Assembly (NCBI RefSeq): GCF_007750855.1
Contig: NZ_CP036291.1
Span: forward strand, 2,046,001 to 2,110,000
Length of the DNA stretch: 64,000 bases
Reading direction: 5' to 3'
From: Pirellulimonas nuda
GTDB lineage: Bacteria; Planctomycetota; Planctomycetia; Pirellulales; Lacipirellulaceae
Under the pieces are notes generated by a model. The model worked only from the letters and a program-made list of their open reading frames with translations. It did not search any database and had not been told where the DNA came from. Below, in pieces: positions 44,113 to 64,000 of the stretch. Both the position numbers and the translations under genes were made by a program. How positions within the stretch are numbered: the first letter of the stretch is position 1; each line of letters opens with the position of its first letter.

Positions 44113-44557
44113 GGTCTGGTTCCGATCGCAAGTCAGATTCGTTGAAGGATCAGCTGTCGGGCAAGTTGCCGAACGCTCCTGCTGCACGGCGCTCTTCCCA
44201 GCTCCGGTATGGATCACCCGCGTGGGGAAGCTTCCGTTCTTGACCATCAGCCGCCGACCCGCTCTTTCCCGCCGGCATTCGTGGGCCGCGACGAGTGCCG
44301 GCACCTCTACAACAATGGTTACCTGCCGCATCCGTCACGCCTCCTCGCGGATAGGCTCGCCGTGCCTAACTGCTCTCGGCACGTGACCACTTCTGGGTCT
44401 AGCGCTGGATCTGCTGGACGGCCCGCGACGACTCCGCTAACCTTCTCCTGGTGACTGGCCGTGACCCCGTCGGGTCGCTGAAATCGTGGTAGACATCAGC
44501 AGGACAGGCCGCCTTTTTGCCATTCAGGAACACGAGTAATGACGGGCCCGGTAAAAC
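44113..44557. other. Intergenic region left of the insertion sequence
   Basis: No gene or RNA is supported in these 445 bases. They separate the Mrr gene from the left end of the ISL3-type element and may include remnants displaced by its insertion, but nothing is recognisable. Confidence 0.35.
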
Positions 44558-47303: not shown

Positions 47304-47937
47304 CACCATCTCCGATGAACGATGTCTCAGAGAGTTCTGCGAGTTTGCGAATCACGACATCAACAAACTCTGTGTCCACCCCGATACCGTTAATCTCGGC
47401 TCTCCCCTCTCTGGCAAGTGTAAGCCCCTGTTCGATGGTCAAGTCATTGCTTGACTGGTTCTTCGCTGGAATGCCTAACAAGTTGGTCACAAGGAACTCA
47501 TATACGCAACCGCTGCTCAGGTGCCATCCGTCTAGAAAGATGGCTCTCGCCGCAAACCGTTCGATCACGAGACTCCAAAAGTGCCGATAGTCGCTCTGCG
47601 TCCACATCTTGACATAAAACTCAGACGGATCGATGAAAGCCTCACTGCTCCGCCTTCTGAACTCCTCGATGCGTACCTTGGCATCGCGGGTGTTTGGGGC
47701 GATCACATGCTCCCGTAGTTCGGAGCTATACTCTTTGCTGTCTCTCTCCTGATGTATTCCGTTCCGCTTGTACCACTGAACGAATCTTGGACCACCAGTG
47801 ACCGGCGTTGCAATATAGACGCACTTGTGCCCATTTAGAACGCAGCTTAGTGCTTCAATCGCAACTCTAAACTCGTCGTGCCGCGTCGAGGGGGGACGGA
47901 ATAGCGACTCAAGTCCTTGAATGCTTACGTCTTCCAT
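47296..47937 (-). CDS. Nucleoside deoxyribosyltransferase-like protein of the three-gene operon
   Basis: This 213-residue protein resembles nucleoside 2-deoxyribosyltransferase-like enzymes (DUF4406/NDT type). YIATPVTGG near residue 40 matches the nucleotide-binding opening strand and loop, and AIFLDGWHLSSGCVYEFLV near residue 130 matches the DGW...E motif of that family. The reaction (base exchange, glycohydrolysis of a nucleotide or a signalling derivative) is not known. It overlaps the AAA gene by 13 bases and the PEP-synthase-like gene by eight, which supports one operon. Confidence 0.55.
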   Translation of the reverse strand: MEDVSIQGLESLFRPPSTRHDEFRVAIEALSCVLNGHKCVYIATPVTGGPRFVQWYKRNGIHQERDSKEYSSELREHVIAPNTRDAKVRIEEFRRRSSEAFIDPSEFYVKMWTQSDYRHFWSLVIERFAARAIFLDGWHLSSGCVYEFLVTNLLGIPAKNQSSNDLTIEQGLTLAREGRAEINGIGVDTEFVDVVIRKLAELSETSFIGDGDA

Positions 47938-50516
47938 TTTTGATTGTCCTTCATTGCTTCCTCTACAAATTGAAGGGCAACCTTTACTGGCTGAAAGGCT
48001 GGCTGACCGGCAAGGATCTTGACCAATTGTGCCAGCCCTTCGGGGCATTTCCCGTCTACGCCAGTAATCGCCACGTCGTAAGTCTCGCAAGCGTCTCGCA
48101 GCACTTCACTAATCGTCTCGCAGATCGACCGCTTGAGATGTTCTCGCGTGCTATCATTTTCACAAAGCAGACCAGCTAAGTCGATAAACTCAAGGAATGG
48201 TTGCTTTACTGTCGAATGCCCCTTGTCAGCGTTCTCTTGCTTTGTGTAGACCTTGAAGCGGGACCGATAACTCCCAATTGTGACCGCCGAAGAGAACATC
48301 CTCTGTTCGTTCTTTGTGGCTTCTAACACCTCGCTCTTCAGCACGTACCGACGTCCTTTGTGATCTCGCAATTCCACTCTAGCAGCAGAGTTCCTGATCA
48401 ACTCGCAGAGTTCGCCGTAAGCGCCGAGAGCACAAGCGTTAGCCACGTCAGTCAAGTCGCTATGTGTAATCTCAACCTGAGCCGGGTCGCCCCCGCCAGT
48501 CGGGGCTGACTCAAGCACTTCTGCATCTAACTTACCGAGTTCGTCCTTCAGTTCGCTGGCAAGAATCTTCGATCTTGCTTCAGAGTTTGGAAGACTGACG
48601 AGGAACTGCTTGTCAATTCTTCCAATGCGTATTGCTGCCGGGTCGAGACGTTCCCAGTAGTTTGTGGCGAGAATGAAAATACTCCGCTGACGTGAACGGA
48701 GTAGCTTCAACTTCGGGAGCATTCCGGGGGTCATTACCTGGAACATATCGCCCTGTTCGAGGTAAAGAGCCGAATCGCGATCCAAGATAAGGCGATCAAT
48801 CTCATCAAAGAGAATGACGGTATCCTCTTGCTCGGACAAAGCGGTAAATATTTCCCTTGCCCGCAACTCCACCTCTGATTCGCCACTGGCGACAAAGTCA
48901 CTTGGAGTAATCTCACAGAATTTCCAGCCTAGAGTTGCTGCGAGGTCTTCCGCTATGGAGGTTTTCCCTGTTCCTGGTGGGCCAAACAGGACCATTGAGA
49001 AACCTTGCCTGCCTCTGACGCCGGGATGTCTGCATTCAACAAGCAGCTTGGCCACGTCTTTATAGAGTTTCGTATCTGGCGGCTGTGGGTCCTTCTTCGA
49101 TGCTTCGTTGTTCCAGTATTCGGTAAGAGGGAGGGAGGCATGCTCTTCCTTTCGCTTCAACGGATGCGAAGTCAGCCGCGCTGCTGATAGGGCGCGTCTT
49201 GCAAGATGCGTTTGCAGCATCTCTTTGTAATGAAGCAAGTACACTGCGACCTGACTTGTTTCCCAAATGTGAATTGAGCCGGGTTGTTGCACATGTTCAG
49301 AATGCCACCCAGTGAACCTGTGAGGCGTATCGAATTCGTCCTTGAATTCGCCGTGAGTGGATCGGCTCACAATCCACTCGTAGTATCGCTTGAAGACACT
49401 GATGTGTTGAGAGAAATATTCTTCTCCAGAATGCTCGAGCAGCCAGCAGGTTCTGAACAGCGAATTAACGATCTCGACACTCAGAGGCAGAAGCGCGAAG
49501 CCTCGATTGTTCGTCAACACAGGTGCGAGTGGACGCCAGTACGGATTTACTTCTTGGCGCTGGTGCAAGACTTCAAAAACTTTGCGGACTAAGTCTGGAT
49601 CATGATTCCTTCCGTTGAAACTCTCGGCCTCGCAACACAGATATCCTTCGAGGGAGAACGCCAGTTCCGCTGCATCGAATGGTGCATCTCTAATTGATGC
49701 AAGAGCAAGATGATCCAGGAGTCGCGAACGAAACCATATCCCTGCTGCGCTTATGTCCGCTTGGCTTAGGGTCGCGGCCTTTTGGAACGAGTTCTTCAAT
49801 TGATCATCCTGCGTTCCGTCGCGGTAGATGTTCGTGGCCATCTTAAAGAGATGGATTGCTCGGAGTGCCGGAAACGCATGCACTGATGCCTTGCCTTCAT
49901 CAGTTGGAATGTCGAGAAGTTGTGGCTGAATTTGGTTGAGGTATTTGATGCGACGAGTCGCGACCGCGACCCATTCGCCGAGACTGGCCACGAAGTGCTT
50001 TTCGTTAAATGCCGCAACGGACTCTGTGAAGTCATCCGCGTGTTGGAGAACACCGCCGACTACTGCTGTCAACCAGGCAAGTGTGAATGGATTCTTTTTC
50101 CCGAACGATGATCTATCTAGCTGCGCTTCGGTGACATTCGCCAGCGATGTTAATTGTTTGTCAACAGCCGTCTTTAGGTTGTTGTTTAATGTGTCTGACT
50201 CAGTGCTTGGGATTGGCAGCCGTTGGACACTTGACGAACCTGCTGGAGCGATGGTCCGCAGCGAAACAACTCCAAGTTGCGTACACAATGCAAATAGAAC
50301 CATGCTTTGCGTGCTTACCGAAGCTGACAGTGGAGGAACTACGTTTGCGCTCTGAACGAGTTCGTAAGGCCAGCCTGAAGCCGTGCGGCACGCCACAAGA
50401 GACCGCCACACGGTCCCCAGGAGTTCGTCGATCTCCTTGAGTTTTCGCCGGTCAACACGGTATTCAGTTTGGAAGTACGCGCTCGGAGCGGAATCCATCA
50501 ATTGCCCTGCCTTCAT
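47925..50516 (-). CDS. AAA+ ATPase of the three-gene operon
   Basis: This 863-residue protein has a large N-terminal region (about residues 1-450) that I do not recognise, then an AAA+ domain: Walker A FGPPGTGKTSIAEDL near residue 510, Walker B TVILFDEID near 565, sensor 1 ILATNYWERLD and an arginine pair in IRIGRIDKQF. About 220 further residues follow. It probably acts as the motor or sensor of the system. The start is uncertain (ATG 50,516 preferred; GTG 50,525 or ATG 50,498). Composition is more AT-rich than the flanking genes, pointing to transfer. Confidence 0.65.
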   Translation of the reverse strand: MKAGQLMDSAPSAYFQTEYRVDRRKLKEIDELLGTVWRSLVACRTASGWPYELVQSANVVPPLSASVSTQSMVLFALCTQLGVVSLRTIAPAGSSSVQRLPIPSTESDTLNNNLKTAVDKQLTSLANVTEAQLDRSSFGKKNPFTLAWLTAVVGGVLQHADDFTESVAAFNEKHFVASLGEWVAVATRRIKYLNQIQPQLLDIPTDEGKASVHAFPALRAIHLFKMATNIYRDGTQDDQLKNSFQKAATLSQADISAAGIWFRSRLLDHLALASIRDAPFDAAELAFSLEGYLCCEAESFNGRNHDPDLVRKVFEVLHQRQEVNPYWRPLAPVLTNNRGFALLPLSVEIVNSLFRTCWLLEHSGEEYFSQHISVFKRYYEWIVSRSTHGEFKDEFDTPHRFTGWHSEHVQQPGSIHIWETSQVAVYLLHYKEMLQTHLARRALSAARLTSHPLKRKEEHASLPLTEYWNNEASKKDPQPPDTKLYKDVAKLLVECRHPGVRGRQGFSMVLFGPPGTGKTSIAEDLAATLGWKFCEITPSDFVASGESEVELRAREIFTALSEQEDTVILFDEIDRLILDRDSALYLEQGDMFQVMTPGMLPKLKLLRSRQRSIFILATNYWERLDPAAIRIGRIDKQFLVSLPNSEARSKILASELKDELGKLDAEVLESAPTGGGDPAQVEITHSDLTDVANACALGAYGELCELIRNSAARVELRDHKGRRYVLKSEVLEATKNEQRMFSSAVTIGSYRSRFKVYTKQENADKGHSTVKQPFLEFIDLAGLLCENDSTREHLKRSICETISEVLRDACETYDVAITGVDGKCPEGLAQLVKILAGQPAFQPVKVALQFVEEAMKDNQKWKT

Positions 50517-50525
50517 TTGCCACAC

Positions 50526-51247
50526 CGGGGGGGGAGTGGTGTTGGATCGTCGGTTTCTTCGATTCTAGCGACTTCGGTTTCCGCAGGACAGGACGCGGGC
50601 GGCCAGTATTCGGACGGCTGTCGAGCACTTCAGGAAGCACTCCCGATGCAGCCGAGTTTCTACGCGATGCGGAGGTGCGTCTTGCACATAATCCCCTGCG
50701 CGCACCGCCGCCGACCGGATGGGGCTCCAGCAACTAAGCTTCCGGTGGTACGGACACTGGCCGGCGCTGACCGCATCGCGTCAGGCCCAGGCTCTACCCA
50801 CGCAGGACGCTGCTGACTCGCCTAGCTTCTGGGGGAATTTCTGGAAGGGACTCGGGATCGGTTTCGTAGGCGGGTTCATCGCCACTTTCCGACCATTCAA
50901 ACGGGATTAAGCTGGCGGCCCAGGCGTTCTGCTTGAAGGGCTGAGGTCCATTGGGGCTCAGCTGTGCCGAGCCGCTTGAAGTTGTCTGGTAATGACATCG
51001 GGCAGTGGCCGCAAACCAGGCAACTGATGGCCAAGTCGGCTTGGAGCCGCACTGTCCCGCCATCTGGCGACCTATTGTCTGAACGCGATGCAAATGTCCT
51101 AATGGCTCGAATGCGCCGCCAAGCCCCGCTATACTCGGCACGCTCTCGCAACGCAGCGCGTCGGGCCGCGTGCCCGTATGATCTGCTCCCGGCGGAGTGC
51201 GATTGGGTGGTTCGCTCGGACCGCTCGGCACTGGATGGCAGCTATCG
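50526..51247. other. Intergenic region between two divergent defence-like blocks
   Basis: No confident gene lies in these 722 bases. One short frame at 50,719-50,910 (63 codons) ends in an aromatic, hydrophobic stretch (FWGNFWKGLGIGFVGGFIAT) like a small membrane protein, but there is no ribosome-binding site. The region should hold the promoters of the leftward AAA operon and of drmD. Confidence 0.4.
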
Positions 51248-54200
51248 ATGGCGACCGCTACCGCGACTCTCCCCGAGCAGGGGCAACTTGTGCAGCTCCG
51301 CTCGCGCCAGTGGGTGGTCAATCAGATCGGGCAGAGCACGCTCCCGCCTAGCGGGCTGTCGGCGGCGCAGAACGCCCAGCACCTGCTGACGCTCTCTTCC
51401 GTGGAAGATGACGCAATTGGGGAAGAGTTGCAGGTGGTATGGGAGATCGAGCCCGGGGCGCGGGTGATCGAGCGATTCGCGTTACCGGACGCCAGCGGCT
51501 TCGACTCACCGGCAAGGCTCGACGCGTTTCTCGACGCAGTCCGCTGGGGCGCCGCTTCCACGGCCGACGTGCGGAACATCCAGGCGCCGTTCCGCAGCGG
51601 GATCGAGATCGAAGACTACCAGCTCGATCCCGTGGTCCGCGCCATCCAGATGCCCCGCGTTAACCTGCTGATCGCAGACGACGTGGGCCTCGGCAAGACC
51701 ATCGAGGCGGGGCTGGTGGCGCTTGAGCTCATCATCCGGCACCGGGCGCGGCGGATGCTGGTGGTTTGTCCCTCGGCGCTGCAGGTGCAATGGCGTGACC
51801 AGATGCGTGACAAGTTCGGCCTCGAGTTCCGCATCGTCGACTCGGCGATGATGCGCGAGCTCCGCCGCCGCCGCGGGATCCACGCCAACCCGTGGAGCCA
51901 TTTCCCGCGGCTGATCACCAGCATCGACTTCCTCAAACGCGAGCGGCCGCTGCGGCAGTTCCGCGAGACGCTGCCGGCGCCGGGCGAGCCGGTCTACCCG
52001 CGGAAGTACGACCTGCTAATCGTCGACGAGGCCCACAACTGCGCCCCGTCGGGGGCGGGCAAGTACGCCACCGACTCGCTCCGCACCCAAGCGCTACGCG
52101 AGCTGACCCCCCACTTCGAGCACAAGCTGTTCCTCACCGCGACGCCGCACAACGGCTACCGCGAGAGCTTCTGCGCGTTGCTAGAGCTGCTCGACAACCA
52201 GCGGTTTTCGCGCGGCGCCGAGCCCGACCGCAAGCAGCTCGACGCGGTGATGGTCCGCCGGCTGCGGAGCGACCCGTCGTTCTCGAAAAAATGGGACGGC
52301 ACGCCCCGTTTCCCGCCGCGGGTGCTCGAGCCGATCGAGGTCCCCTACACGGACGAAGAACGGGCGTGCCACGCCGCGCTGCGCGAGTACACCAAGCTCC
52401 GCTCTAGCCGGGCCGATGGCGCCGCGGAGCGGTTCGCGACGGAGTTTGTGCTCAAGACGCTGAAGAAGCGGCTCTTCTCTAGCCCCGCCGCGTTCCTGGC
52501 GACGCTCAAGCGGCACGAAGAGTCGCTCAAGACCGCCCGCCGCAAGAAGGCGGCCAAGCCCACCATTAGTGTGCTGCAACGCGAGCTCGACCGCCTGGAC
52601 GAGGAGTACGGCGACGACGACGAGTTCGACCAGGCGTCTGACGACGCCCTCGACTCCGCCAGCCGGCTGTTTGCGGAGCCGACCCCCACGGAGACCGGCC
52701 TGCTTAAGCAGATGAAGGACTGGGCCGAGAAGGCGAGCGGCCAACGTGACTCGAAAGCCAAGCAGCTCATCGCCTGGCTGCACGATCTGCTCAGGCCGGG
52801 GGGCAAGTGGTCCGCCGAGCGGGTGATCCTGTTCACCGAGTACCGAGCCTCCCAGAATTGGCTGCAGCAGCAACTGGCCACGGAGGGGCTCGGGGGCGAC
52901 CGGCTGATGACGATGCACGGCGGCATGGACAGCGACCGCCGCGAAGAAGTAAAGGCAGCCTTCCAAGCGTCCCCCGCGATCAGCCCCGTGCGGATCCTGC
53001 TGGCGACCGACGCCGCCTCCGAGGGGCTCGACCTGCAGAACCACTGCTCCCGGCTGGTGCACTACGAGATCCCGTGGAACCCCAATCGCATGGAGCAGCG
53101 GAACGGCCGCGTGGATCGGCACGGCCAGAAGGCCCCCAAGGTGCAGATCTACCACTTCGTCGGCGCCGGCTACCAGCAGAAAGCGGCCACGGGCGCCGTC
53201 ACCACCGCCGGCGATCTCGAAGCAGACTACGAGTTCTTGATGCGGGTCGCGATGAAAATCGAGACAATCCGCGAAGACCTCGGCAAGGTCGGGCCGGTAA
53301 TCGCCCAGCAGGTCGAGGAGGCCATGCTCGGCCGCCGCACCACGCTGCAGACGGAGCAGGCCGAGAGCGAGGCCCAGCCCATCCGCCGGCTGCTGCGTTT
53401 CGAGCGCGACCTGCAGAAGCAGGTCCAGGCGCTGATGGACCAGTACCGCGAGACCCGCCGCGAGCTGCGCCTCTCGCCGGAAAACATCGCCACGGTGGTG
53501 CAGACCGGGCTCGAGCTGGCCGGGCAGCCGCCCCTGGCGCCGGCGCAAACGCCCGACGGCAAGCCATGCTTTCGGCTGCCGCCGATGAAGGGGAGCTGGG
53601 CCGCCTGCTCGCAGGGGCTCGAGCACCCCCACACCCGCGACCTGCGGCCGATCACGTTCGACGAGTCGGTCAGCCGCGACCGCGACGACGTGGTCCTCGT
53701 GCACCTGAACCACCGCCTGCCGCAGATGTGCCTGCGGCTGCTCCGCGCCGAGGTATGGGCGGAGAAGGGCCGTTCGAAGCTCCAGCGCGTCACCGCCCGC
53801 GTGATCCCCAACAATCTGCTGGAAGGGCCCGCGGCGATCGCCCACGCCCGGCTGGTGGTTATCGGCGGCGACTGCCACCGCCTGCACGAAGAAGTGATCG
53901 CCGCCGGCGGGCTGATCAAGGAGGGCAAGTGGGGGGGCCGGCTCAAGGTGGGCCAACTTGAAGCCGCCCTGGCCGCCGCCGGTCCCGATGAGCCCCCAAC
54001 CGCGGTTCAGGCCACGCTACTGGAGCTCTACCCCGCGCTAGCCGAACCGCTCGGCGCCGCGCTCGAGGCCCGCAAGAAGGACCGCGTCACCGGCCTCGAG
54101 AAGCGCCTGAACGAACGCGCGGACAAAGAAGCGGCCGACATCGCCGCGATCCTCACCGAGCTGAAGCGCTCCATCGAGACCGAGCTCGACGAGCCGGAGT

Positions 54201-54397
54201 ACCAGCAGCTCGAGCTGTTCACGAGCCCCGAACGCGATCAGTTCAACCGCAACAAAGAAGCGATGCGCCAACGGGCCCGCGAGATCCCGACGGAGATCAA
54301 CCGTGAGACCGCCGCGATCCGCGCCCGGTTCGCCGACCCGCAAGCAAGAATGTTCCCGGTGGCGGTCACCTTCCTGATCCCTGCGGGGCTAGCCTAA
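51248..54397 (+). CDS. drmD: DISARM SNF2-like helicase DrmD
   Basis: This 1,049-residue protein is an SNF2-family helicase of class 1 DISARM, which blocks entering phage DNA. Motifs are LIADDVGLGKTIEAGL (Walker A-like, about residue 143), IVDEAHNCAPSG (about 258), LFLTATPHNGY, and in the second lobe ILFTEYRASQNW (about 528), LDLQNHCSRLVHYEIPWNPN and RNGRVDRHGQ (about 618). The N-terminal PEQGQLVQLRSRQWVV is typical of DrmD. The ATG at 51,248 gives this start; the open frame to 51,197 is not conserved. The kinase gene follows after 15 bases. Confidence 0.85.
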   Translation: MATATATLPEQGQLVQLRSRQWVVNQIGQSTLPPSGLSAAQNAQHLLTLSSVEDDAIGEELQVVWEIEPGARVIERFALPDASGFDSPARLDAFLDAVRWGAASTADVRNIQAPFRSGIEIEDYQLDPVVRAIQMPRVNLLIADDVGLGKTIEAGLVALELIIRHRARRMLVVCPSALQVQWRDQMRDKFGLEFRIVDSAMMRELRRRRGIHANPWSHFPRLITSIDFLKRERPLRQFRETLPAPGEPVYPRKYDLLIVDEAHNCAPSGAGKYATDSLRTQALRELTPHFEHKLFLTATPHNGYRESFCALLELLDNQRFSRGAEPDRKQLDAVMVRRLRSDPSFSKKWDGTPRFPPRVLEPIEVPYTDEERACHAALREYTKLRSSRADGAAERFATEFVLKTLKKRLFSSPAAFLATLKRHEESLKTARRKKAAKPTISVLQRELDRLDEEYGDDDEFDQASDDALDSASRLFAEPTPTETGLLKQMKDWAEKASGQRDSKAKQLIAWLHDLLRPGGKWSAERVILFTEYRASQNWLQQQLATEGLGGDRLMTMHGGMDSDRREEVKAAFQASPAISPVRILLATDAASEGLDLQNHCSRLVHYEIPWNPNRMEQRNGRVDRHGQKAPKVQIYHFVGAGYQQKAATGAVTTAGDLEADYEFLMRVAMKIETIREDLGKVGPVIAQQVEEAMLGRRTTLQTEQAESEAQPIRRLLRFERDLQKQVQALMDQYRETRRELRLSPENIATVVQTGLELAGQPPLAPAQTPDGKPCFRLPPMKGSWAACSQGLEHPHTRDLRPITFDESVSRDRDDVVLVHLNHRLPQMCLRLLRAEVWAEKGRSKLQRVTARVIPNNLLEGPAAIAHARLVVIGGDCHRLHEEVIAAGGLIKEGKWGGRLKVGQLEAALAAAGPDEPPTAVQATLLELYPALAEPLGAALEARKKDRVTGLEKRLNERADKEAADIAAILTELKRSIETELDEPEYQQLELFTSPERDQFNRNKEAMRQRAREIPTEINRETAAIRARFADPQARMFPVAVTFLIPAGLA

Positions 54398-54412
54398 GAA
54401 AGTGGTGTATGA

Positions 54413-55819
54413 ATGGCAAAACTAGAAAAGGACATCGTCCTGAATTGCCGTTTTCGACTCCTGGAGAAACTCGGGGCCGGAGGTTTTGGCGAAGTCTGGA
54501 AAGCCGAAGATCAATCGCTGCACCGTGAAGTGGCGATAAAGAGTCTGTTTGGCATGGCTGCTGACTCTGATGCCGTGGACGAAGCTCGCAAACTCGCAAG
54601 CGTTCAGCACGCCAATATTGTGCAGATTTACGATGTGTTCAATCATGAGGACAGGTCCATCATTGTGATGGAGTACGTCGACGGCCAGTCGTTAGCCGAA
54701 ATACTGCGCCACAGCATCTCCCTTGGTCATTGGATCAGCCGGGAACAATCGCTCCGCTATCTCGCCAATCTAGCAGAGGCGGTAATACACGCTCACGCAT
54801 CATCCATACTCCATCGCGACATTAAGCCGGAGAACGTGATTATCTCTCGACAGGACGAAGCAAAGCTGACTGACTTTGGAATAGCGAAGATCGAGTCGCA
54901 ACAAGATGGCTTTGGGCGAACTAACAATCAAACGGTCGATGGAGCTCGGACCGGTACTTGTGAGTACATGTCTCCGGAGCAACTTAATGGCAAGCCACTG
55001 GACTATCAGTCGGATTTGTTTTCTCTTGGCATTGTTGCTTACCTGCTTTTGTCCAAGCGCCATCCGTTTTGTCATCATTCTGGGCTGTTCTCGATATCAG
55101 AGCTAATCTCCCACGGTAGGTGGCCGATCGACCGCGCTCCTCTTGGTGAAATCGCATCGGACTCAGTTGTCGACGTTGTACTGAAACTGTTGGAGTTTGA
55201 CCCAAAAGATCGCCCGCAATCTGCTGCGGACTTGCTTGGTGCGATTCGCTCCTCGGAGGTAAGTGGGCTGCTTTGTCCGCATTGCGGAGCGCCAAACGTA
55301 CACGTCGCTGTGTTTTGCAATCAGTGTGGAAGGTCTCTCCGGCGAGATACTTCTACAGACAATAGGGCCAGAGGGAGAGCCGCTGCGCTGACCGATGAGG
55401 GAGTAGCCGCGTCTGAAGCCGGCAATTGGGACCTTGCGGTCGCAAAGTATAAGACGGCACTCCTTGAAGACGGGACGTATGCTCGGGCACTTGGCAACCT
55501 AGGTTACGCCCTTAGTAGGTTTGGGAGGTACGACGAAGCGGTTGTCGTTTTGGATCGTGCCATAAGGCTCGAAGAGCACCCGTTATGCTACGACTACCGG
55601 GCGTTTGCTCTTAGCAAGTTGCTTCGCAATGAAGAGGCACTAAGTAGCATCGACAAAGCCATTGCGATTAGCCCACAGAACGTCAATTACATGGTGAGTC
55701 GCGCGCACATTCTTTTACTTCTCGGCCGGCGCAATGACGCAATGGGCCAGCTCAAGCAGGTGCTTGAACTTGACCCCGGCAATACGCGAGCGTCAGACCT
55801 CCGATCGCGGATCTACTAA
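54413..55819 (+). CDS. Ser/Thr kinase with zinc ribbon and TPRs, inserted in the DISARM locus
   Basis: This 468-residue protein has an intact Hanks-type kinase domain (residues 10-270): glycine loop LGAGGFGEVWKAED, AIKSL, HRDIKPEN near 134, DFGIAK and TCEYMSPEQL. A zinc ribbon (CPHCG near 287, CNQCG near 301) and three TPR-like repeats (about 320-465) follow. It lies 15 bases after drmD and 21 before drmMI on the same strand, yet its base composition is clearly more AT-rich than both. Kinases are not standard class 1 DISARM subunits, so it may sense infection or switch the system; that is inference. Confidence 0.85.
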   Translation: MAKLEKDIVLNCRFRLLEKLGAGGFGEVWKAEDQSLHREVAIKSLFGMAADSDAVDEARKLASVQHANIVQIYDVFNHEDRSIIVMEYVDGQSLAEILRHSISLGHWISREQSLRYLANLAEAVIHAHASSILHRDIKPENVIISRQDEAKLTDFGIAKIESQQDGFGRTNNQTVDGARTGTCEYMSPEQLNGKPLDYQSDLFSLGIVAYLLLSKRHPFCHHSGLFSISELISHGRWPIDRAPLGEIASDSVVDVVLKLLEFDPKDRPQSAADLLGAIRSSEVSGLLCPHCGAPNVHVAVFCNQCGRSLRRDTSTDNRARGRAAALTDEGVAASEAGNWDLAVAKYKTALLEDGTYARALGNLGYALSRFGRYDEAVVVLDRAIRLEEHPLCYDYRAFALSKLLRNEEALSSIDKAIAISPQNVNYMVSRAHILLLLGRRNDAMGQLKQVLELDPGNTRASDLRSRIY

Positions 55820-55840
55820 GAAAGAGGATTTGACATCCAT

Positions 55841-58800
55841 ATGTCCATAGCCCGCCACCACGCCGAATGGCTCTCCCTCACCCCCGTCTCGGGCCCATTC
55901 CTGAGTCTGCCGGTGCTGCAGCAGGCATTTCCGCAGGGGCTTGATGCGCACGACCCCGACGGCTTCCGCCTGCTGCGGCAAGCCTATGAGGAGTGGGACG
56001 CCGCGACGGCGGAAGGGCCGAACGGCTCCGCCACGCACGAAGCCTGGGCGCGGTTTGTGCTGACGCAGACGCTGGAGCACGACGAGGCCAATCTGGTCGC
56101 CGGCCCCGAGATCTCGCAGACGCTCCAGGTCGAGCTCCCCGAGCACGGCGAGCTGCTCCGCCCCTCGCTGGTGCTGCTCGACCCGGCCGACAAGCGGCCA
56201 CGGCTGCTAGTCAAACACTACCCGCGGTCGCAGAGCCTGGCGGGCTACGTCGGCGGGTCACGGTGGAAGGCGTCGCCCGACACGCGGATGACAGAGCTGC
56301 TCCGCGGCGCCGGCGTGCGGCTGGGGCTGGTGACCAACGGCGAGCAGTGGATGCTGGTCGACGCCCCCAAGGGCGAGACCGCCGGCTACGCGTCGTGGTA
56401 CGCCCCGCTGTGGCTGGAAGAGAAGATCACCCTGCAGGCGTTCCGCAGCCTGCTGAGCGCCCAGCGGTTCTTCGGCGTCGCGGACGACGAGACGCTCGAA
56501 GGGCTGCTGGCCAAGAGCGCGGGAGACCAGCAGGAGGTCACCGATCAGCTCGGCAAGCAGGTGCTGCGGGCCGTGGAGGTGCTGATCCAGTCGCTCGACC
56601 GGGCCGACCAAGACAACCAGCGGGTGCTGCTGGCGGGGGTCCCCGAGGCCGTGCTCTACGAGTCGGCCCTCACGGTGATGATGCGGCTGGTGTTCTTGTT
56701 CTGCGCCGAAGAACGCGAGCTGATCCCCACCAAGCCCTTCCCGGTGTACGAAGAGAACTACAGCGTCTCGACCATCTCCAAGCAGCTCCGCGAGACCGCC
56801 GACCAGCACGGCGAGGAGCTGCTCGAACGCCGCTTCGACGCCTGGCCCCGACTGCTGGCCACATTCCGGGCCGTGTACGGGGGGGTGTCGCACGACCAGG
56901 TCTACCTGCCGGCCTACGGTGGCGGGCTGTTTGCACCAGACCGGTTCCCGTTCCTCGAAGGCCGCCCCGCCGGGACGACTTGGAAAGACACGCCCGCCAG
57001 CCCACTGCCGGTCAACAACCGCACCACCCTCCACCTGCTCGAAGCGCTGCAGTTGCTGCAGATCAATGCGGGCCGCGGCGCGGTCGAGGCCCGCCGGCTC
57101 AGCTTCCGGGCGCTCGACATCGAACAAATCGGCCACGTCTACGAGGGCCTGCTCGACCACACCGCGAAGCGGGCCGGGGAGACCTTCTTGGGGCTGATCG
57201 GCAAGACAGAGCCGGAGATCCCGCTAGCCCGCATCGAAGAAGAACGCGCCAAGGGGGAAGACAAGTTCGCCGAGTTCCTCAAGAAGCAGACAGGCGGCAA
57301 CCGCAAGTGGCAGAAGTACCTCGATCAGCCGCTCGACGACCACGAGCAATCGAAGCTGCTGGTCGCATGCGGCAATGACGCACAACTTGCTGCGCGGGTC
57401 GCCCCCTACGCCAAGCTGCTGCGGGCCGACACGCTCGGCTTCCCGGTGGTGGTGACCGAGGGGAGCGTGTTTGTCACCGCCGGCATGGACCGCCGCAGCA
57501 GCGGCACCCACTACACGCCGCGGAGCCTGACCGAGCCCATTGTGCAGTACACGCTGGAGCCGCTGGTGTACGTGGGGCCGGCCGAGGGGGCAGAGAAGAA
57601 GGACTGGAAGCTCAAGCCCGCGGCCGAGCTGCTCGAGCTGAACATCTGCGACATGGCGTGCGGCAGCGGCGCGTTCTTGGTGCAGGCGGCGCGGTACATG
57701 GCGGCGCGGCTGCTCGAAGCGTGGGACGCCGCGGCCGCGGACCACCCCGACGCCCCCGGCGTCACGCCGCTGGGAGAGCCCGCCATCGGCGAGCGCAGCG
57801 AGCAACTCATCCCCAGCGACCCCGCGGAGCGGACCACCTACGCGATGCGGCTGGTCGCCCAGCGCTGCCTGTACGGCGTCGACATCAACCCGCTAGCCGT
57901 CGAGATGGCCAAGCTGTCGCTGTGGCTGCTGACGCTGGCGCGGGACAAGCCGTTTGAGTTCCTCGACCACGCCATCCGCTGCGGCGACTCGCTGGTAGGG
58001 ATCCACAACCTCGAGCAACTCAAGCACTTTAGCCTCAAACCCGAGGACGAAGACGCGGTGCTGTTCTACGGTCCGCTGCTCGAAGGGGTCGACGAGGCGG
58101 TCGACCTACGGCTGCAACTCGAAGCCTTTTCGGCCGACACGTTCGAAGGGGTCAAGCAGCAGGTGAGGCTGCACCGCGAGGCCGAGGACAAGATCGCCCG
58201 GCTGCGATGCGCGGCCGACCTGCTGGTTTCGGCCGAGTTCTGGGGCGAGGGCGCTAAGGACAAGCAAGAGCGTGTCCGCCACGCCGCGGTGGTTGCGGGG
58301 CACTACGTCGAGCACGGGCCGACCGAAGAGTTCGTAGCGAAAGCAACGTCCGAGCGGCAGGGGCAGCGGATGTTCCACTGGCCGCTGGAGTTTCCGGAGG
58401 TATTCACAAAGGGCGGATTCCATGCGTGCATTGGAAATCCGCCGTTCGTGGGGGGCAAACGTATTTCTACGTCATGCAGCAGTTCTCTCGCATTGTGGAT
58501 CCGAACTACTTATGAAAACGGTCGCAATACAGCAGATCTTTGCGCATACTTCTTCCAAAGATGCCATCACTTGCTTTCGGATGGTGGCGCATTGGGACTA
58601 CTTGCAACGGACTCCGTGTCCGATGGCGACAGCGCGAGAGTCGCATTCGTCCCCGCTTTAGAGGCAGGTGGCACAATTTTTCTCGCCACAACATCGTTTC
58701 CATGGCCTGGGGCCGCAAGCGTTGTAGCAAGTCTCGCGCACTTACAAAAAGGGGGCCATCAAGGCGAGCGTCGCCTAAACGGCTCGCCTGTCGGTCAGAT

Positions 58801-59875
58801 AGATGCGCACCTCGTGGCTGCTAGCGGGCTGAGTCACCCGAAACGCCTCTGTTCGGCAGCTATTCCTGCGTTCGTAGGCTCTTTCGTTCGTGGTGAAGGA
58901 TTCATCATCTCTCCCCAAGAGGCCGAAGATTTCTTGCGTTCCGATCCACGCAATGCTGATGTGGTATTCCCATACTTAACTGGTGAAGATCTATGTCAGT
59001 CAGCAGGACAGCATGGAACGCGATTCATCATTAACTTCTTTGATTGGCCGCTTGGTCGTGCAGAGAGCTACTTGCTCCCGATTCAGACGATAGTTGAAAG
59101 AGTGCGGCCATTTCGCGCAAAGGTTAAAGAGAAGGCAGCGAGAAGTAGATGGTGGCAATACGCAGGACTGAAAGCGGGACTGTATCGATCTCTTCAGAAT
59201 GCAAGTCATGCTTTCGTTCGAGCACGTGTTTCAAGCACTCACGCAATAATGCGTGTCGATTCACGACAGGTGTTTTCGGACCAGATCGTTGTCTTCGGTG
59301 TTGATGGCGACGACGGCTTTGGGATCCTGCAGAGCTGCCTTCACGAAGAGTGGGTGTCGAGGTATTCGTCGACATTGGGAGGAACAATTCGCTACTCGCC
59401 AACCGAGTGCTTCGAAACATTTCCATTCCCAGACCGCATCGCAAAAATTGATTGCTTTCTTGAAGTCATCGCGGCGTATGAAGCTCGCAGGGAACTACTA
59501 CTGCGCGACGAGATCACAGGGCTTACATCGCTTTACAATTCCGTAGATTTGCCCAGTGAGAGGTCCGTCGCCATGACGTCATTTCGCGATGTGATCGTTG
59601 ACCTCGACGGTCGGGCTAGTTTAGCGTACGGATGGGACGACCTGGACCTCTGTCACGACTTTCACGAAACCAAGCAGGGCATCCGCTTCACGATCAGCGA
59701 ACCGGCCCGCCGCGAGGTGCTGCAGCGGCTGCTGAAGCTGAACCACGAGCGCTACGCCGAAGAGGTGCGGCAGGGGCTGCACGAGAAGAAGAAGGGGAAG
59801 AAGCCCGCGGCGAAGCGGGGGGCGAAACGGTTGAAGGAGAATGCCCGGATGTTGTTTGATGGGGAGGGGGCGTGA
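55841..59875 (+). CDS. drmMI: DISARM adenine methyltransferase DrmMI
   Basis: This 1,344-residue protein is an N6-adenine methyltransferase with the Eco57I/BREX-like layout of DISARM class 1. SAM-binding motif I is NICDMACGSGAFLVQAAR near residue 603 and catalytic motif IV is IGNPPFVGG near residue 866. Methylation would mark host DNA as self. From just after motif IV to about residue 1,265 the DNA is clearly more AT-rich and the codon use differs, then it returns to GC-rich, as if the target-recognition domain had been exchanged. The C terminus is Lys-rich. Confidence 0.88.
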   Translation: MSIARHHAEWLSLTPVSGPFLSLPVLQQAFPQGLDAHDPDGFRLLRQAYEEWDAATAEGPNGSATHEAWARFVLTQTLEHDEANLVAGPEISQTLQVELPEHGELLRPSLVLLDPADKRPRLLVKHYPRSQSLAGYVGGSRWKASPDTRMTELLRGAGVRLGLVTNGEQWMLVDAPKGETAGYASWYAPLWLEEKITLQAFRSLLSAQRFFGVADDETLEGLLAKSAGDQQEVTDQLGKQVLRAVEVLIQSLDRADQDNQRVLLAGVPEAVLYESALTVMMRLVFLFCAEERELIPTKPFPVYEENYSVSTISKQLRETADQHGEELLERRFDAWPRLLATFRAVYGGVSHDQVYLPAYGGGLFAPDRFPFLEGRPAGTTWKDTPASPLPVNNRTTLHLLEALQLLQINAGRGAVEARRLSFRALDIEQIGHVYEGLLDHTAKRAGETFLGLIGKTEPEIPLARIEEERAKGEDKFAEFLKKQTGGNRKWQKYLDQPLDDHEQSKLLVACGNDAQLAARVAPYAKLLRADTLGFPVVVTEGSVFVTAGMDRRSSGTHYTPRSLTEPIVQYTLEPLVYVGPAEGAEKKDWKLKPAAELLELNICDMACGSGAFLVQAARYMAARLLEAWDAAAADHPDAPGVTPLGEPAIGERSEQLIPSDPAERTTYAMRLVAQRCLYGVDINPLAVEMAKLSLWLLTLARDKPFEFLDHAIRCGDSLVGIHNLEQLKHFSLKPEDEDAVLFYGPLLEGVDEAVDLRLQLEAFSADTFEGVKQQVRLHREAEDKIARLRCAADLLVSAEFWGEGAKDKQERVRHAAVVAGHYVEHGPTEEFVAKATSERQGQRMFHWPLEFPEVFTKGGFHACIGNPPFVGGKRISTSCSSSLALWIRTTYENGRNTADLCAYFFQRCHHLLSDGGALGLLATDSVSDGDSARVAFVPALEAGGTIFLATTSFPWPGAASVVASLAHLQKGGHQGERRLNGSPVGQIDAHLVAASGLSHPKRLCSAAIPAFVGSFVRGEGFIISPQEAEDFLRSDPRNADVVFPYLTGEDLCQSAGQHGTRFIINFFDWPLGRAESYLLPIQTIVERVRPFRAKVKEKAARSRWWQYAGLKAGLYRSLQNASHAFVRARVSSTHAIMRVDSRQVFSDQIVVFGVDGDDGFGILQSCLHEEWVSRYSSTLGGTIRYSPTECFETFPFPDRIAKIDCFLEVIAAYEARRELLLRDEITGLTSLYNSVDLPSERSVAMTSFRDVIVDLDGRASLAYGWDDLDLCHDFHETKQGIRFTISEPARREVLQRLLKLNHERYAEEVRQGLHEKKKGKKPAAKRGAKRLKENARMLFDGEGA

Positions 59876-59934
59876 TGAACGATCGCCGCGCGGCGATCAT
59901 CGGAGCGATTGCTTAAAGCTAAGGTCAGAAGGCG

Positions 59935-60600
59935 ATGCCAAACGTCAGGGTCATTGTTGTTTTCAAGGGTCACGATTCGGTCCCAACAGATGTCGTGATT
60001 GGTGTCATCAAAGATATCGAGCGCATTGCGTACAAGGTCGAACGGAGCGTTCTGGATGACTCGCTGTCACAATGCTTGCAGCAGAAGTACCTCACCAGCG
60101 TTGAGGTGGATGCAATTCAGTATCGTTTCGATGCAATGAAAGGGGCATCGATGATGGTTCGTGGAACCGAACGAGGGTCGTTGATCCTCACCTTAGTCGG
60201 AGGTGGAGCGGCTATTTGGCTAATTAAGAACACGGTGGGCGAGTCGTTGCGTGAAGGCTACAAGGGATCTGCGCTTGACATGCTGTTGCAAAACCTGTCC
60301 CGAAAGGGGGCCGATTATCTGGGCGCGGGCATTAAGGTAGCCATGGAAAGGCAGAGCGAGCTAAACCTGCGCAGTCTCGATCGCAGTCAGGAGGCCACCC
60401 GGCAGGGGCGCAGACTTAGTCGGATTAAGTCGGCCCTTTGGACAGTTAAGCTCATCGAAGTCGACGAAGGGGATGATGGGGTCATCTCGGTTCGGGCGTG
60501 GATGACTTACGAGGAAGCCTCGATCGAGACTAGGGAATACATCCGGATGCTAGAGGGGACAAACGAGGACCCGCCTCCGCAGCAATTCGCCAATGAGTAG
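59935..60600 (+). CDS. Hypothetical protein with one membrane segment
   Basis: This 221-residue protein has a hydrophobic segment near residue 82 (GSLILTLVGGGAAIWLI) and otherwise soluble, charged regions (ALDMLLQNLSRKGADYLG). No family is recognised. Composition is lower in GC than drmMI. It might anchor a defence component to the membrane, but that is only a guess. Confidence 0.5.
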   Translation: MPNVRVIVVFKGHDSVPTDVVIGVIKDIERIAYKVERSVLDDSLSQCLQQKYLTSVEVDAIQYRFDAMKGASMMVRGTERGSLILTLVGGGAAIWLIKNTVGESLREGYKGSALDMLLQNLSRKGADYLGAGIKVAMERQSELNLRSLDRSQEATRQGRRLSRIKSALWTVKLIEVDEGDDGVISVRAWMTYEEASIETREYIRMLEGTNEDPPPQQFANE

Positions 60601-61064
60601 CCACAAGAGCTCATCTCCGATCAAAACTGATTCGCAAATGATCGTCCGAATACGCACCAGCCGCGACCTGCTCGGCCTGCTGGCCATCGGCCAGACCGCG
60701 GCGTGGGTCGTCAGCAAGCAGTCGCTCAAGAGCCACGCCACGACCCGCGTGCACGTGGTCAACTGGACCGGCACGCAGCGGATCGAGGCCGACTACTCCG
60801 AAGAGCACACCATCGAGAACCACCCCGACCACCCCCAGGGGCCGCACCGCCATCGGCCTGGCCAACCCCCGCATCGTCCGCTGCCGGGTCAGCTTCCCGC
60901 ACCGCACCGCCCTCACCTACCACCCGCTGGACTACGAGCAACAAACCGCCGCCCAGCCCACCTACCAAGCCCCAGCAACCGGCTGGCCACCACCCACCCG
61001 AAAAGAAGCCCTCGCCCCCTACGAGGCCGAAGCCGCGGCACACGCGGAGGTCGAGGAGGAATGA
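60593..61064 (+). pseudogene. Frameshifted small gene in the DISARM locus
   Basis: Codons from 60,593 (or ATG 60,638) give RIRTSRDLLGLLAIGQTAAW and RVHVVNWTGTQRIEADYSEE (split), then the frame breaks near the run CACCCCCAGGGG at about 60,835-60,842. Removing one base would restore a frame that continues TAIGLANPRIVRCRVSFPHR and ends in AHAEVEEE at a stop at 61,064. It is a recent frameshift, a sequencing error in the homopolymer, or possibly programmed. The product's function is unknown. It lies between drmMI-linked and PLD genes. Confidence 0.6.
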
Positions 61065-61143
61065 ACGCAGGGAGCAGCAGGTCTACCGGGCAGAGGGAAG
61101 GCGCCAGCGCAATGCAGGTGAGCCCTCGAGCTGGAGGATCGCA

Positions 61144-62364
61144 TTGAAGATCCTCGCGAGTGGCCAAGAAGCAGCGTCGCAGTTCAGCAAACTGATTAAG
61201 CGGCACGACCGGGTCCGGATCGCGGCGGCCTGGGCGACGCGACGTTGTCCCCTCTTCCCGGTGCTGAGCGAGAACACCGCCAAGATCTCCGACCTGACGA
61301 TCGGCATCCACTTCTATCAGACCGACCCAGACTTCATCGAAGCCTTCCGTGAGCACCCCGCGGCACGCTTTGTGATGAACCCGGCCGGCGTCTTCCACCC
61401 GAAGGTCTACCTGTTTGAATCTGAAGGAGGCAGGTGGAGCGCGATCATCGGCAGCCCGAATCTTACCCACGGCGCATTCACCAAGAACGACGAGATCGCG
61501 GTCGCGATCGACTCGTCCGATATCGGCGCCGAGGACGCCTACCGTCAGCTAGACGCGAACCTCATCCAGTACCGTGCACAGGGCCACCGGATGGACCGCG
61601 ACGGCCTCGAACGCTACCGCCAGGTTTGGCGCCGCCAGCAGCAACGGCTCGCAAGTCTGCGGGGCGACTACACGATCTCTGAAGCAAAAACTCGGCCGCG
61701 GCCTACCAAGTCGCCGCTCGAGGTTCCGCTGTTCGTTCAGAGCTGGTCGGAGTACTTCGCGTCAATTATGGAGGGGAGCAAAGGCTTGCTTGAGGGGGGT
61801 CTCGCGGTGCTGGAAGAGGCCCGTCGCTTGTTCGCGCAGCACGATCACTTCAGCGATATGCCAGTCGACGTGCGCAAGGGGATCGCCGGCATCATGCGGA
61901 CCGAGGAGCTCGACTGGTTGTGGTTCGGGAGCATGCGGGGAGCGGGGTACTTCAAAGAGGCGATCGGCCTGAACAACAGCGTCGTTTCTGAGGCCCTAGA
62001 CACCATCCCAAGCACCGGCGCCGTGACGCAGAGCGACTACGACCGCTTCGCAGCGACTTACGCGAACGCGTTCCAGGACGCCGGCGTCGCCACCGGGACG
62101 CGGCTGCTCGCGATCAAGCGTCCCGACTACTTCGTTTGCTTTGACAGCAAGAACCGCAAGGCGCTCTGCAAAACCTTCGAGATCCCGCAGGACGTGCGCC
62201 TCGAGAGCTACTGGGACCGCATCGTTGCGCGGATCACCGAAACGAACTGGTGGAACGACACGCCCCCCACAGACCCGCTCCAAAGGCGGGTATGGCAGTG
62301 TCGTGCGGCATTCCTCGACGTGCTATTCTACGAACCTGGCGGGCGAGAGGACTCGGAGGTTTGA
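61144..62364 (+). CDS. PLD-family nuclease-like protein
   Basis: This 406-residue protein has one phospholipase-D-type motif: FHPKVYLFE near residue 85 followed by IIGSPNLTHGAF near 102 and a conserved acidic NDEIAVA. HKD proteins of this kind often act as dimeric nucleases. The C-terminal half (RRLFAQHDHFSDMPVDVRKG to RAAFLDVLFYE) is a separate domain I do not recognise. The start is TTG 61,144, set by GGAGG seven bases upstream. DISARM's own PLD protein DrmC normally follows drmB, so this seems to be an extra member rather than DrmC. Confidence 0.7.
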   Translation: MKILASGQEAASQFSKLIKRHDRVRIAAAWATRRCPLFPVLSENTAKISDLTIGIHFYQTDPDFIEAFREHPAARFVMNPAGVFHPKVYLFESEGGRWSAIIGSPNLTHGAFTKNDEIAVAIDSSDIGAEDAYRQLDANLIQYRAQGHRMDRDGLERYRQVWRRQQQRLASLRGDYTISEAKTRPRPTKSPLEVPLFVQSWSEYFASIMEGSKGLLEGGLAVLEEARRLFAQHDHFSDMPVDVRKGIAGIMRTEELDWLWFGSMRGAGYFKEAIGLNNSVVSEALDTIPSTGAVTQSDYDRFAATYANAFQDAGVATGTRLLAIKRPDYFVCFDSKNRKALCKTFEIPQDVRLESYWDRIVARITETNWWNDTPPTDPLQRRVWQCRAAFLDVLFYEPGGREDSEV

Positions 62365-62683
62365 GCGAGCCGGCTTCGTAATCGTGACGGGGCATGAACG
62401 GGCTGAAGCCGAGCGGAAGAGACACAGGTAGGCGGGTGTCCGACTCCGGACATAGCGCCGCGTTAGGTCCAGACATAACGGATCAGAGGTCCGGACATAA
62501 ACCAGGCGTAGCCACAACTTCCGCGTCGGCTTTTGGTGGCTCGTTCGAGGAGGATCCCGACCCGAGCTGGTGGCGCTTGCCGAAACGATTTACCAAAGTC
62601 GCTGGTGGGCCTGCTAGCGGCCAATCGCAATTCCAACGAAGATAAGTGCCCCAAGCCTTCGACTTACCACTTACCTCGCCCGT
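62365..62683 (+). promoter_or_regulatory. Upstream region of drmA with three TCCGGACATA repeats
   Basis: No gene is seen in these 319 bases. TCCGGACATA occurs at 62,445-62,454 and 62,490-62,499, with TCCAGACATA at 62,468-62,477. The 22-23 base spacing puts the copies on one face of the helix, as for an operator. It would control drmA. Confidence 0.45.
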
Positions 62684-64000
62684 ATGCTTACCGCCGACCT
62701 ACTCTCCGCCGTCCCCTCGCAGGCCGCTATCCGCGAGGAGCTTGAGCGGATGCTGATCGGCGACCTGCTCGGCCCCGCGGCCGGGCAAGACGAGGAGATC
62801 ACCGAACGCTCCGTTCGCGACCGTTACTTGGTGGGGGTGTTGTCGCCGAGCCGTGGCGCGTCGGGCGAGCCGAGCGGAGGCAAGGAAGACGAGGACGACT
62901 TCGAGACCCCTCTGATCCCCGACGAGTTGGCCGCCGGCGGGAGTGACAACGCCCAGGACGGCGTTACCGACCGCGACGTGCCGGCCGCGAGTGGGTTTCT
63001 GCCGTCGTCGATCGGATTGACCTTCTCGGTCGAGGGGGAGACGGAGGCTTTGCGGGTGTCGGTCGAGTGGGGGCAGTACCGCCGAGAGAAGCGGGAAGAG
63101 CAGCAACCGCCGCGAATCTGGAAGCGCTACCCGCGTGGCGGGTCGATCGAGCTGAAGCTGGCCGCCGGATCGATCAAGCCGCAGGCGCCCGACCCGGAGT
63201 TTCCCGAGGTTTACGTGCAGGGGCAGGTCCGCCGACGCGACGAGCACTGGGTGGTGACGCTGTTCCTGGTGAACGCCCAAGAAGAGGGGACGCCGAAAGA
63301 CGAGTCGTACATCTTCCAGTCGGTGCTGGCGGTTGAAGGCCCCGCGGGAGAGGCGCCATTCTGCAAACGGATGGCGATCGGCGCCGCCGACGACCTCGAA
63401 GAGCGGATGATGGCGATGCTCTACCGCCGGCAGGTAGAGTTCGCGGTCGGGCACGGCGTGAGCGTGCACGCAGAGCCGTCGCCGGACCGGCCCGACCGGG
63501 CGACAGCGCTGCGAACGGTTTTCCTTCCCACGTACGAGGTGCCACGCACCACCCCCCCTACCCCGTCCGACGCGGCCCAGAACCCGGCCTTCGCCAAGCT
63601 GGAGGGCTTGGTGCTGGACATGAAGGAGCTGGCCGAGGCAGACGGACCGCGGTTGCAGAAGCTGCTCGCCCCGCTGGTGACCGCCTACCGCGCCTGGATC
63701 GAGGGCGAAGCGGTCAAGCTGAACGTCCCAGAAGAGCAACTGGCGCCATACGGCGACGCGTCGCGGGTGGCGGTCGACAACTGCCGTCAGACCCTGTCGC
63801 GGATCGAGCAGGGGCTGGGGCTGCTGCGGGACGACCCGCAGGCGTTCGAGGCGTTCTGCTTCATGAACCGGGCGATGTGGTACCAGCGGACGCACTCGCT
63901 GTACGCAGAACGTAAACGCCGCGGCGAAGACCCCGACTTTAGCGCGACGGTCGACGTGCCGAAGAACCGCACGTGGCGGTCGTTCCAGATCGCGTTCGTG
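62684..64000 (+). CDS. drmA: DISARM helicase DrmA (partial)
   Basis: The first 439 codons of DrmA are present, and the gene runs off the window. The opening (IREELERMLIGDLLGPAAGQ, then YLVGVLSPS) and later FLPSSIGLTFSVEGE, EFAVGHGVSVHAE and AFCFMNRAMWYQRTHS match the N-terminal part of DrmA. Helicase motifs should lie beyond the window. Together with drmD and drmMI this identifies class 1 DISARM; drmB and drmC are expected further right. Confidence 0.82.
   Translation, partial: MLTADLLSAVPSQAAIREELERMLIGDLLGPAAGQDEEITERSVRDRYLVGVLSPSRGASGEPSGGKEDEDDFETPLIPDELAAGGSDNAQDGVTDRDVPAASGFLPSSIGLTFSVEGETEALRVSVEWGQYRREKREEQQPPRIWKRYPRGGSIELKLAAGSIKPQAPDPEFPEVYVQGQVRRRDEHWVVTLFLVNAQEEGTPKDESYIFQSVLAVEGPAGEAPFCKRMAIGAADDLEERMMAMLYRRQVEFAVGHGVSVHAEPSPDRPDRATALRTVFLPTYEVPRTTPPTPSDAAQNPAFAKLEGLVLDMKELAEADGPRLQKLLAPLVTAYRAWIEGEAVKLNVPEEQLAPYGDASRVAVDNCRQTLSRIEQGLGLLRDDPQAFEAFCFMNRAMWYQRTHSLYAERKRRGEDPDFSATVDVPKNRTWRSFQIAFV

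Follow-up and report, generated by a model that had tools for sequence, protein, structure and literature searches.

Defense genes nested in type I restriction loci and in CRISPR loci are known. Among defense kinases, PglW and MAD6 are subunits of their own systems, and Stk2 and PD-T4-6 are single-gene defense kinases, proposed to act by phosphorylating host proteins to stall growth. According to excerpted text of PMC12707154, the tRNA nuclease PrrC sits in the type IC restriction locus ecoprrI and is triggered by inhibition of the host system; a comparable excerpt of PMC12409349 places CRISIS between cas genes and describes PARIS and Ronin as responding to anti-restriction proteins. Here, we describe a DISARM locus of Pirellulimonas nuda (GCF_007750855.1; a 6.6-Mb genome in a single contig), located in a 64-kb window covering positions 2,046,001-2,110,000 of the forward strand of contig NZ_CP036291.1, to which all coordinates below refer. 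The locus carries a Ser/Thr kinase gene between drmD and drmMI, and comparison with related loci indicates that this junction is almost certainly a cargo slot, with the kinase as its current occupant.

The locus resembles class 1 DISARM in that all 5 genes are present in the class order, and it differs in having the kinase gene in the drmD–drmMI junction and 2 genes between drmMI and drmA. In the list of open reading frames (ORFs), all genes from position 51248 lie on the plus strand, in the order drmD, kinase gene, drmMI, 2 more genes, and drmA; the genome read past the window continues with the remainder of drmA, then drmB, then drmC. DrmD, DrmA, DrmB, and DrmC each score above their NCBIfam cut-offs (for the genes beyond the window, DrmB_fam 673.6 bits against a cut-off of 240 and DISARM_DrmC_I 212.2 bits against 133), and DrmMI is assigned by the PADLOC model at near full length. 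As judged from gene content and family scores, the locus is a complete class 1 DISARM (drmD, drmMI, drmA, drmB, and drmC). An earlier sequence-only reading of the window had described drmD, the kinase gene, and drmMI as neighbors with drmA downstream, in the class 1 order, with spacings of 15 bases (drmD–kinase) and 21 bases (kinase–drmMI), and the ORFs and family scores agree with it.

51248..54397, plus strand: drmD, SNF2-like helicase of class 1 DISARM (NCBIfam DISARM_DrmD NF038317, 1360.9 bits, cut-off 610; PADLOC DrmD, 1422 bits); the longest ORF starts at 51197
54398..55840, plus strand: presumed cargo slot 1, from the drmD stop to the drmMI start, filled in 47/163 loci; DNA homology with the relative L087 breaks at its edges
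54413..55819, plus strand: cargo gene, 468-amino acid (aa) Ser/Thr kinase (Pfam; kinase domain at about 13-280, zinc ribbon, then TPRs)
55841-59875, plus strand: drmMI, whole gene, adenine methyltransferase (PADLOC DrmMI, 1601.9 bits, residues 2-1329)
62684..64000, plus strand: start of drmA (439 aa); its end lies outside the window, at 66277 in the same numbering, and the full protein scores 1390.5 bits with DISARM_DrmAS (cut-off 950)

For comparison, neighborhoods were fetched around DrmD matches, picked mostly by high DrmD score and labeled with L-numbers. They comprise a phylum sample (matches in 77 of 392 genomes; of 93 places listed besides our own, 40 were fetched, mostly top scorers), a class sample (54 of 397 genomes matched; 40 of 64 places fetched, 8 others being already included), the best 80 of at least 549 confirmed loci from a named genome collection, 7 of 11 plasmid records, and phylum samples centered on a cyanobacterium, a Chloroflexota genome, and an Acidobacteriota genome (17/244, 22/281, and 7/267 genomes matched; 16/18, 18/24, and 6/7 places fetched). 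The total came to 209 loci including 2 stretches of our own genome; drmD was present in 206; 14 of these were removed because their DrmD shared 97% identity or more with that of a retained locus, which left 192, and in 163 of the 192 drmMI follows drmD on the same strand at a distance of up to 6.5 kb. These 163 distinct drmD–drmMI loci represent several phyla. ORF calling was simple, and most stretches end at approximately 20 kb (approximately 21-23 kb for named-collection and plasmid loci), so that a very large insertion could hide drmB or drmC. We counted a junction as filled when a gap of at least 300 nucleotides (nt) contained an ORF of 80 aa or more on the same strand, and as tight when the gap was at most 60 nt.

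The drmD–drmMI junction is filled in 47 and tight in 97 of the 163 distinct loci. Among the loci nearest ours (DrmD score >1400 bits), it is filled in 23 of 31 and tight in 6, compared with 12 of 71 and 12 of 61 filled in the 2 groups of lower DrmD score. At the control junctions, no gap reached 300 nt, either between drmA and drmB (0 of 58) or between drmB and drmC (0 of 14). Since the same junction is recurrently filled while the control junctions are empty, a random landing of the kinase gene is disfavored. Of the cargo ORFs, 62 share the strand of the operon and 6 lie on the opposite one. In 47 of 51 gaps, the guanine-cytosine content (GC) of the slot is lower than the average of the genes on either side (0.484 versus 0.566; Wilcoxon p 1.6e-9). 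Some short ORFs counted as cargo, such as those of 98 aa in L223 and 129 aa in L157, may be spurious. In L214 (4817-12730), 2 drmD types in tandem are followed by a 491-aa gene and then drmMI; the 1058-aa “cargo” of this locus, counted among the 62 proteins, is the second drmD type (1632.4 bits), and the locus was kept in the count of 47 because the 491-aa gene also lies in the gap.

Occupants of the slot differ even between close relatives. At E 1e-5, phmmer sorts the 62 same-strand cargo proteins into 45 clusters, and on a FastTree phylogeny of 101 DrmD proteins the fewest changes required are 14 for the filled or empty state and 34 for cargo identity. Within the 13-member clade that includes our DrmD, 10 loci are filled with 9 kinds of cargo, only L090 and L174 sharing one. 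In the nearest relative, L087 (DrmD 77% identical), the slot is occupied by an unrelated gene of 248 aa; the L087 DNA is homologous to ours up to 54381, at the end of drmD, and again from 55841, the drmMI start codon, until 58459 inside drmMI. Filled L090 and empty L091 are 91% identical in drmD DNA and likewise over approximately 6 kb after drmMI, the differences being the slot, the C-terminal part of drmMI, and approximately 330 nt before drmA that are present in L091. A second such pair is L157 (filled) and L152 (empty), with 85% identity in drmD and 85% in drmMI as far as the L157 contig extends. L191 and L195 carry different cargo next to drmD genes that are 88% identical, and in both loci the cargo has start/stop overlaps on both sides.

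As to how cargo may have entered, the sequence CTAAGAAAG, followed by 1 differing base and GG, occurs as a direct repeat at 54394-54405 (drmD stop) and 55816-55827 (kinase stop). Across loci, the longest word shared between the slot ends averages 6.0, versus 5.4 (standard deviation 0.15) for shuffled locus pairings; with stop codons aligned, 5 of the 47 cargo loci score at least 6, versus 1% of cross-locus pairs, at least 2 of those 5 (L117 and L118) being of low complexity. The repeat at the stop codons is only a hint of an insertion footprint. Repeats like CTAAGAAAG near stops were also seen in L081 and L207.

Besides the kinase, 43 slot-1 cargo proteins were scanned with Pfam, and 16 cargo proteins, selected as probably informative, with PADLOC, which was also run on 3 others (the second gene of L137, the second drmD of L214, and a pair member of L056). 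The L054 cargo matches AriAB of PARIS (PADLOC, 464.8 bits), that of L133 is a GmrSD-type enzyme (HEC-06, 773.7 bits), and that of L195 is a schlafen-group helicase (candidate system PDC-S41, 753.2 bits). Other occupants include an Mrr-type nuclease in L179, with L191 in the same cluster; CHAT and nSTAND1 in L137; schlafen AlbA_2 proteins in L157 and L216, with L058 in the same cluster; and a PLD-like protein in L224. Toxin genes with small partners are present in L148 (ParE-type toxin, 27.5 bits; ribbon-helix-helix-like partner below the cut-off) and L207 (YhaV, 169.4 bits; PrlF-like partner below the cut-off). A PD-(D/E)XK cluster, which we take to be of the GxxExxY type, spans 5 loci, 23S rRNA IVP-like proteins occur in 6, and further cargo comprises DUF4058, DUF433, DUF429, and DUF3800 proteins. 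By these family matches, several cargo genes correspond to known or candidate defense systems, though a defense identity does not follow for all of the cargo.

Within this sample, a kinase in the slot is peculiar to our locus. An HMM (hidden Markov model) built from 8 kinases of this genome and applied to every ORF of 60 aa or more in the 209 loci, which atypical kinases could escape, placed a kinase between drmD and drmMI in 1 of the 163 distinct loci, namely ours, ruling it out as a conserved DISARM part. The sequence-only reading was thus right that the kinase is not a standard DISARM subunit. Its further proposal, that the kinase has a role in the system, holds as far as insertion into a standard class 1 operon and plausible co-expression go, but not as regards component status. 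It had also taken absence of the kinase from related DISARM loci as a sign of chance insertion; the kinase is indeed absent from them within this sample, yet chance accounts poorly for a junction that is filled in 46 of the 162 other loci, against 0/58 and 0/14 at the control junctions.

Other kinases were found outside the slot. By coordinates, those of L160 and L172 lie upstream of drmD, at distances of approximately 7 and 5 kb, and the 3 kinases of L113 are on the opposite strand, outside drmD–drmMI. Two candidates were rejected: in L211, housekeeping-type genes separate the kinase from drmD and drmMI was not found in the locus, and in L220 the kinase, on the same strand, ends 269 nt upstream of drmD. 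The word “kinase” is absent from the main text of 2 DISARM-related papers (PMC12458937 and PMC9142583). A different departure from the usual arrangement is seen in L043 (5955-11261), where a single 1769-aa ORF matches both DrmD and DrmA and drmMI was not found in the locus, possibly through fusion or methyltransferase loss.

The kinase ORF and its catalytic motifs are intact (GAGGFG at residue 21, VAIK at 40, HRD at 134, and DFG at 154), and its best sequence matches among solved structures are PknB-type kinases. Pfam (Pkinase, 1e-50; Zn_Ribbon_1 at 288-309; TPR matches from approximately 304 to 463) bears out the zinc ribbon and TPRs recognized in the sequence-only reading, and all 4 zinc-ribbon cysteines are present (residues 288, 291, 302, and 305). 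The more AT-rich composition noted there is likewise evident from a GC of 0.53 and a GC at third codon positions (GC3) of 0.56, versus 0.68 and 0.89 for drmD; kinase stretches in 7 other genes of the same genome have a GC of 0.62-0.71. Searched against its own genome, the kinase matches 52 places at E 0.001, mostly kinase domains, the best other one being 41% identical. The gene looks acquired rather than recently duplicated locally, because its composition is foreign compared with drmD and the other kinases and because the best match in its own genome reaches only that 41%. The kinase scores 109.3 bits with BREX_PglW (NCBIfam cut-off 990), matching in the kinase domain only, and 147.1 bits with antiphage_MADS6, the MAD6 model (cut-off 460). 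With PADLOC PD-T4-6 it scores 217 bits; of 4 control kinases from the same genome, 3 exceed this value (267.9-310.8) and the fourth has no match at E 1e-30. In view of this control, the PADLOC labels PD-T4-6 and mad6 were not counted as signs of a defense kinase, the PD-T4-6 match appearing generic to kinases.

A second junction beside drmMI, between drmMI and drmA, is filled in 55 of 91 readable loci. In our locus it holds the 2 additional genes, on which the sequence-only reading is silent, as it is on the AT-rich C-terminal part of drmMI.

55841..58459, plus strand: drmMI N-terminal and methyltransferase part, DNA-alignable with the relative L087
58460..59875, plus strand: drmMI C-terminal part with the target recognition domain (MmeI_TRD at 1017-1198, Pfam), AT-rich and diverged
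59935..60600, plus strand: cargo slot 2, gene 1, 221-aa protein (GC 0.54; hydrophobic stretch by eye)
60703..62364, plus strand: cargo slot 2, gene 2, PLD-like/NgoFVII-like nuclease (Pfam PLDc_2, 6.7e-7; RE_NgoFVII, 3.9e-6), whose true start is probably nearer 61100

Family-model scans, including Pfam, NCBIfam, and PADLOC, gave no match for the 221-aa protein, and phmmer detected no homologue of either slot-2 gene (59935-62364) in the other fetched DISARM loci. Two Planktothrix agardhii plasmids, excluded from the counts as near-duplicates, are approximately 95% identical through drmD, cargo, and drmMI and differ in the second slot, which contains a pair made up of a hypothetical gene and a PIN-domain gene in one plasmid and a GIY-YIG nuclease in the other. 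Variation extends into drmMI. Its positions 58460-59875 have a GC of 0.54 versus 0.68, and DrmMI identity per 100 aa in the pairs L090/L091 and L191/L195 falls from approximately 90% to 33-40% at around residues 900-1200 and rises again at the end. Between our DrmMI and that of L087, identity falls from 58-84% to 12-38%, the last value being affected by a contig end that cuts the L087 protein at residue 1199. DrmD has no such dip in the 2 pairs computed. Exchange apparently also affects the C-terminal part of drmMI, as a second module, and since the dip covers the MmeI-type target recognition domain, which lies within the diverged stretch of our DrmMI, methylation specificity also seems to change by module exchange. 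In L089 (9405-10707), approximately 1.3 kb of extra DNA interrupts drmMI relative to L085.

Co-expression of the kinase with drmD and drmMI is plausible because the spacing is tight, the genes share a strand, and no plus-strand terminator-like site was found between drmD and drmMI, such sites being seen only within drmMI. No promoter-like site was found in 50800-63000, which is uninformative, as shuffled sequence averages 1.7. The explanation that we favor, and hold to be probable on this comparative evidence, is an ordinary class 1 DISARM with a cargo slot, the kinase being an exchangeable accessory and likely a backup anti-phage effector; once the slot is granted, the backup role is slightly the better bet for the kinase. 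The cargo would be expressed together with drmD and drmMI and would form a self-contained accessory defense that widens or backs up DISARM. Most likely, the product would act as a soluble effector kinase, its TPR/zinc-ribbon half recognizing either a cue of infection or a DISARM complex that has been disturbed, and its kinase domain then phosphorylating host proteins, with a growth stall as the outcome.

Several observations weigh against this explanation. Cargo is missing from 6 of the 31 loci even in the score group nearest ours, and the frequencies should not be read as population estimates, since most loci were selected for a high DrmD score. No close homologue of the kinase was found at E 1e-52 among 391 other sampled genomes of the phylum, with 4 first-look candidates scored per genome, and its PD-T4-6 match appears unspecific, 3 of the genome's 4 control kinases scoring higher. 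Of the 43 other cargo proteins scanned, 16 gave no hit in Pfam at E 0.01, and the 23S rRNA IVP, DUF4058, DUF433, and DUF429 matches are to families not known to us as defense; neutral passengers may therefore make up part of the cargo.

The alternative that survives best is that the cargo is an addiction device or guard wired to DISARM, whose loss or inhibition triggers the cargo effector in the manner of PrrC or CRISIS. The kinase gene sits inside another defense operon, as embedded guards of this type do, toxin genes with small partners are among the cargo, and the slot of L054 holds PARIS, which, like PrrC within its type IC restriction-modification locus, offers a precedent in the excerpts cited above (PMC12409349 and PMC12707154). 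The 45 cargo clusters leave no common adaptor apparent at E 1e-5, short shared motifs not having been searched for, and we regard such wiring as unlikely. Its most elaborate form, which we would call speculative but worth stating, gives class 1 DISARM 2 dedicated slots, one on either side of drmMI, for interchangeable guard effectors coupled to the integrity of DISARM; a DISARM-blocking phage would then set off a fallback, here the TPR/zinc-ribbon kinase. We know of no earlier kinase guard of a restriction-type system.

If the junction were instead merely tolerant, gaining and losing genes without defense benefit, the kinase would be a passenger. High turnover, with 34 changes of cargo identity, the foreign composition of the cargo, and the 16 proteins without a Pfam match fit passive cargo, but of the 4 junctions compared only the 2 beside drmMI are filled, the strand bias is 62:6, start/stop overlaps flank the cargo on both sides in L195 and L191, cargo matches known or candidate defense systems, and the kinase ORF and motifs are intact, all of which makes passive cargo quite improbable. 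The idea that the kinase has become a lineage-specific DISARM subunit, which senses infection and phosphorylates DrmD, DrmMI, or DrmA as an on/off switch, along the lines of the sensor or switch suggested in the sequence-only reading, draws on the shared strand, the tight spacing on both sides, and the kinases of other methylation-linked systems (PglW and MAD6 models), but is very improbable given a slot kinase in 1 of 163 loci, another gene in the slot of the sister locus L087, and PglW and MAD6 scores far under the cut-offs.

The surroundings of the operon contain further candidate defense genes. Downstream, past the window (L040:7973-17594; genome positions approximately 2.123-2.133 Mb), CRISPR-Cas genes and repeat arrays, by eye type I-C-like, follow DISARM, and the 2 together look by eye like a defense island. 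Upstream of drmD, an AT-rich cluster on the minus strand (45927-50525) encodes an 866-aa AAA+ ATPase with weak IetA/TRIP13-type PADLOC matches and 2 proteins without family matches, and may be another defense module. An Mrr-like nuclease ORF and a transposase-like ORF were recognized by eye from the translation at 43039-45868.

The slot is a place to look for new defense genes, since its occupants swap between relatives and are often defense-like. If it holds accessory defense, the unannotated occupants would be new anti-phage gene candidates, including the 248-aa gene of L087, the 276/287-aa family of L174 and L090, and the 221-aa slot-2 gene of our locus, and fallback effectors in defense operons would become testable in one operon with many natural replacements. 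No description of a DISARM cargo slot was found in the titles and abstract openings searched, where coverage of subscription journals is thin; extra DISARM genes may well be in print. The cargo slot is a more interesting result than the kinase as a new DISARM subunit, which lacks support.

Set beside the systems introduced at the outset, the kinase resembles PglW of BREX and MAD6 of MADS in being a Ser/Thr kinase of methylation-linked defense, and differs in scoring far below the cut-offs of both families. With PD-T4-6 and Stk2 it shares a stand-alone kinase domain as the putative defense effector, although its PADLOC match to PD-T4-6 appears generic. The likeness to PARIS (AriA/AriB) lies in the AriAB-matching protein that occupies the same slot at L054, a protein of a family unrelated to the kinase. 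As with PrrC in ecoprrI, an extra effector gene appears to be embedded in a restriction-type operon, but the cargo here is a kinase and its identity varies between loci, whereas PrrC is a tRNA nuclease with a known trigger. Like CRISIS, finally, the arrangement would nest one defense in the operon of another, the host system here being DISARM.

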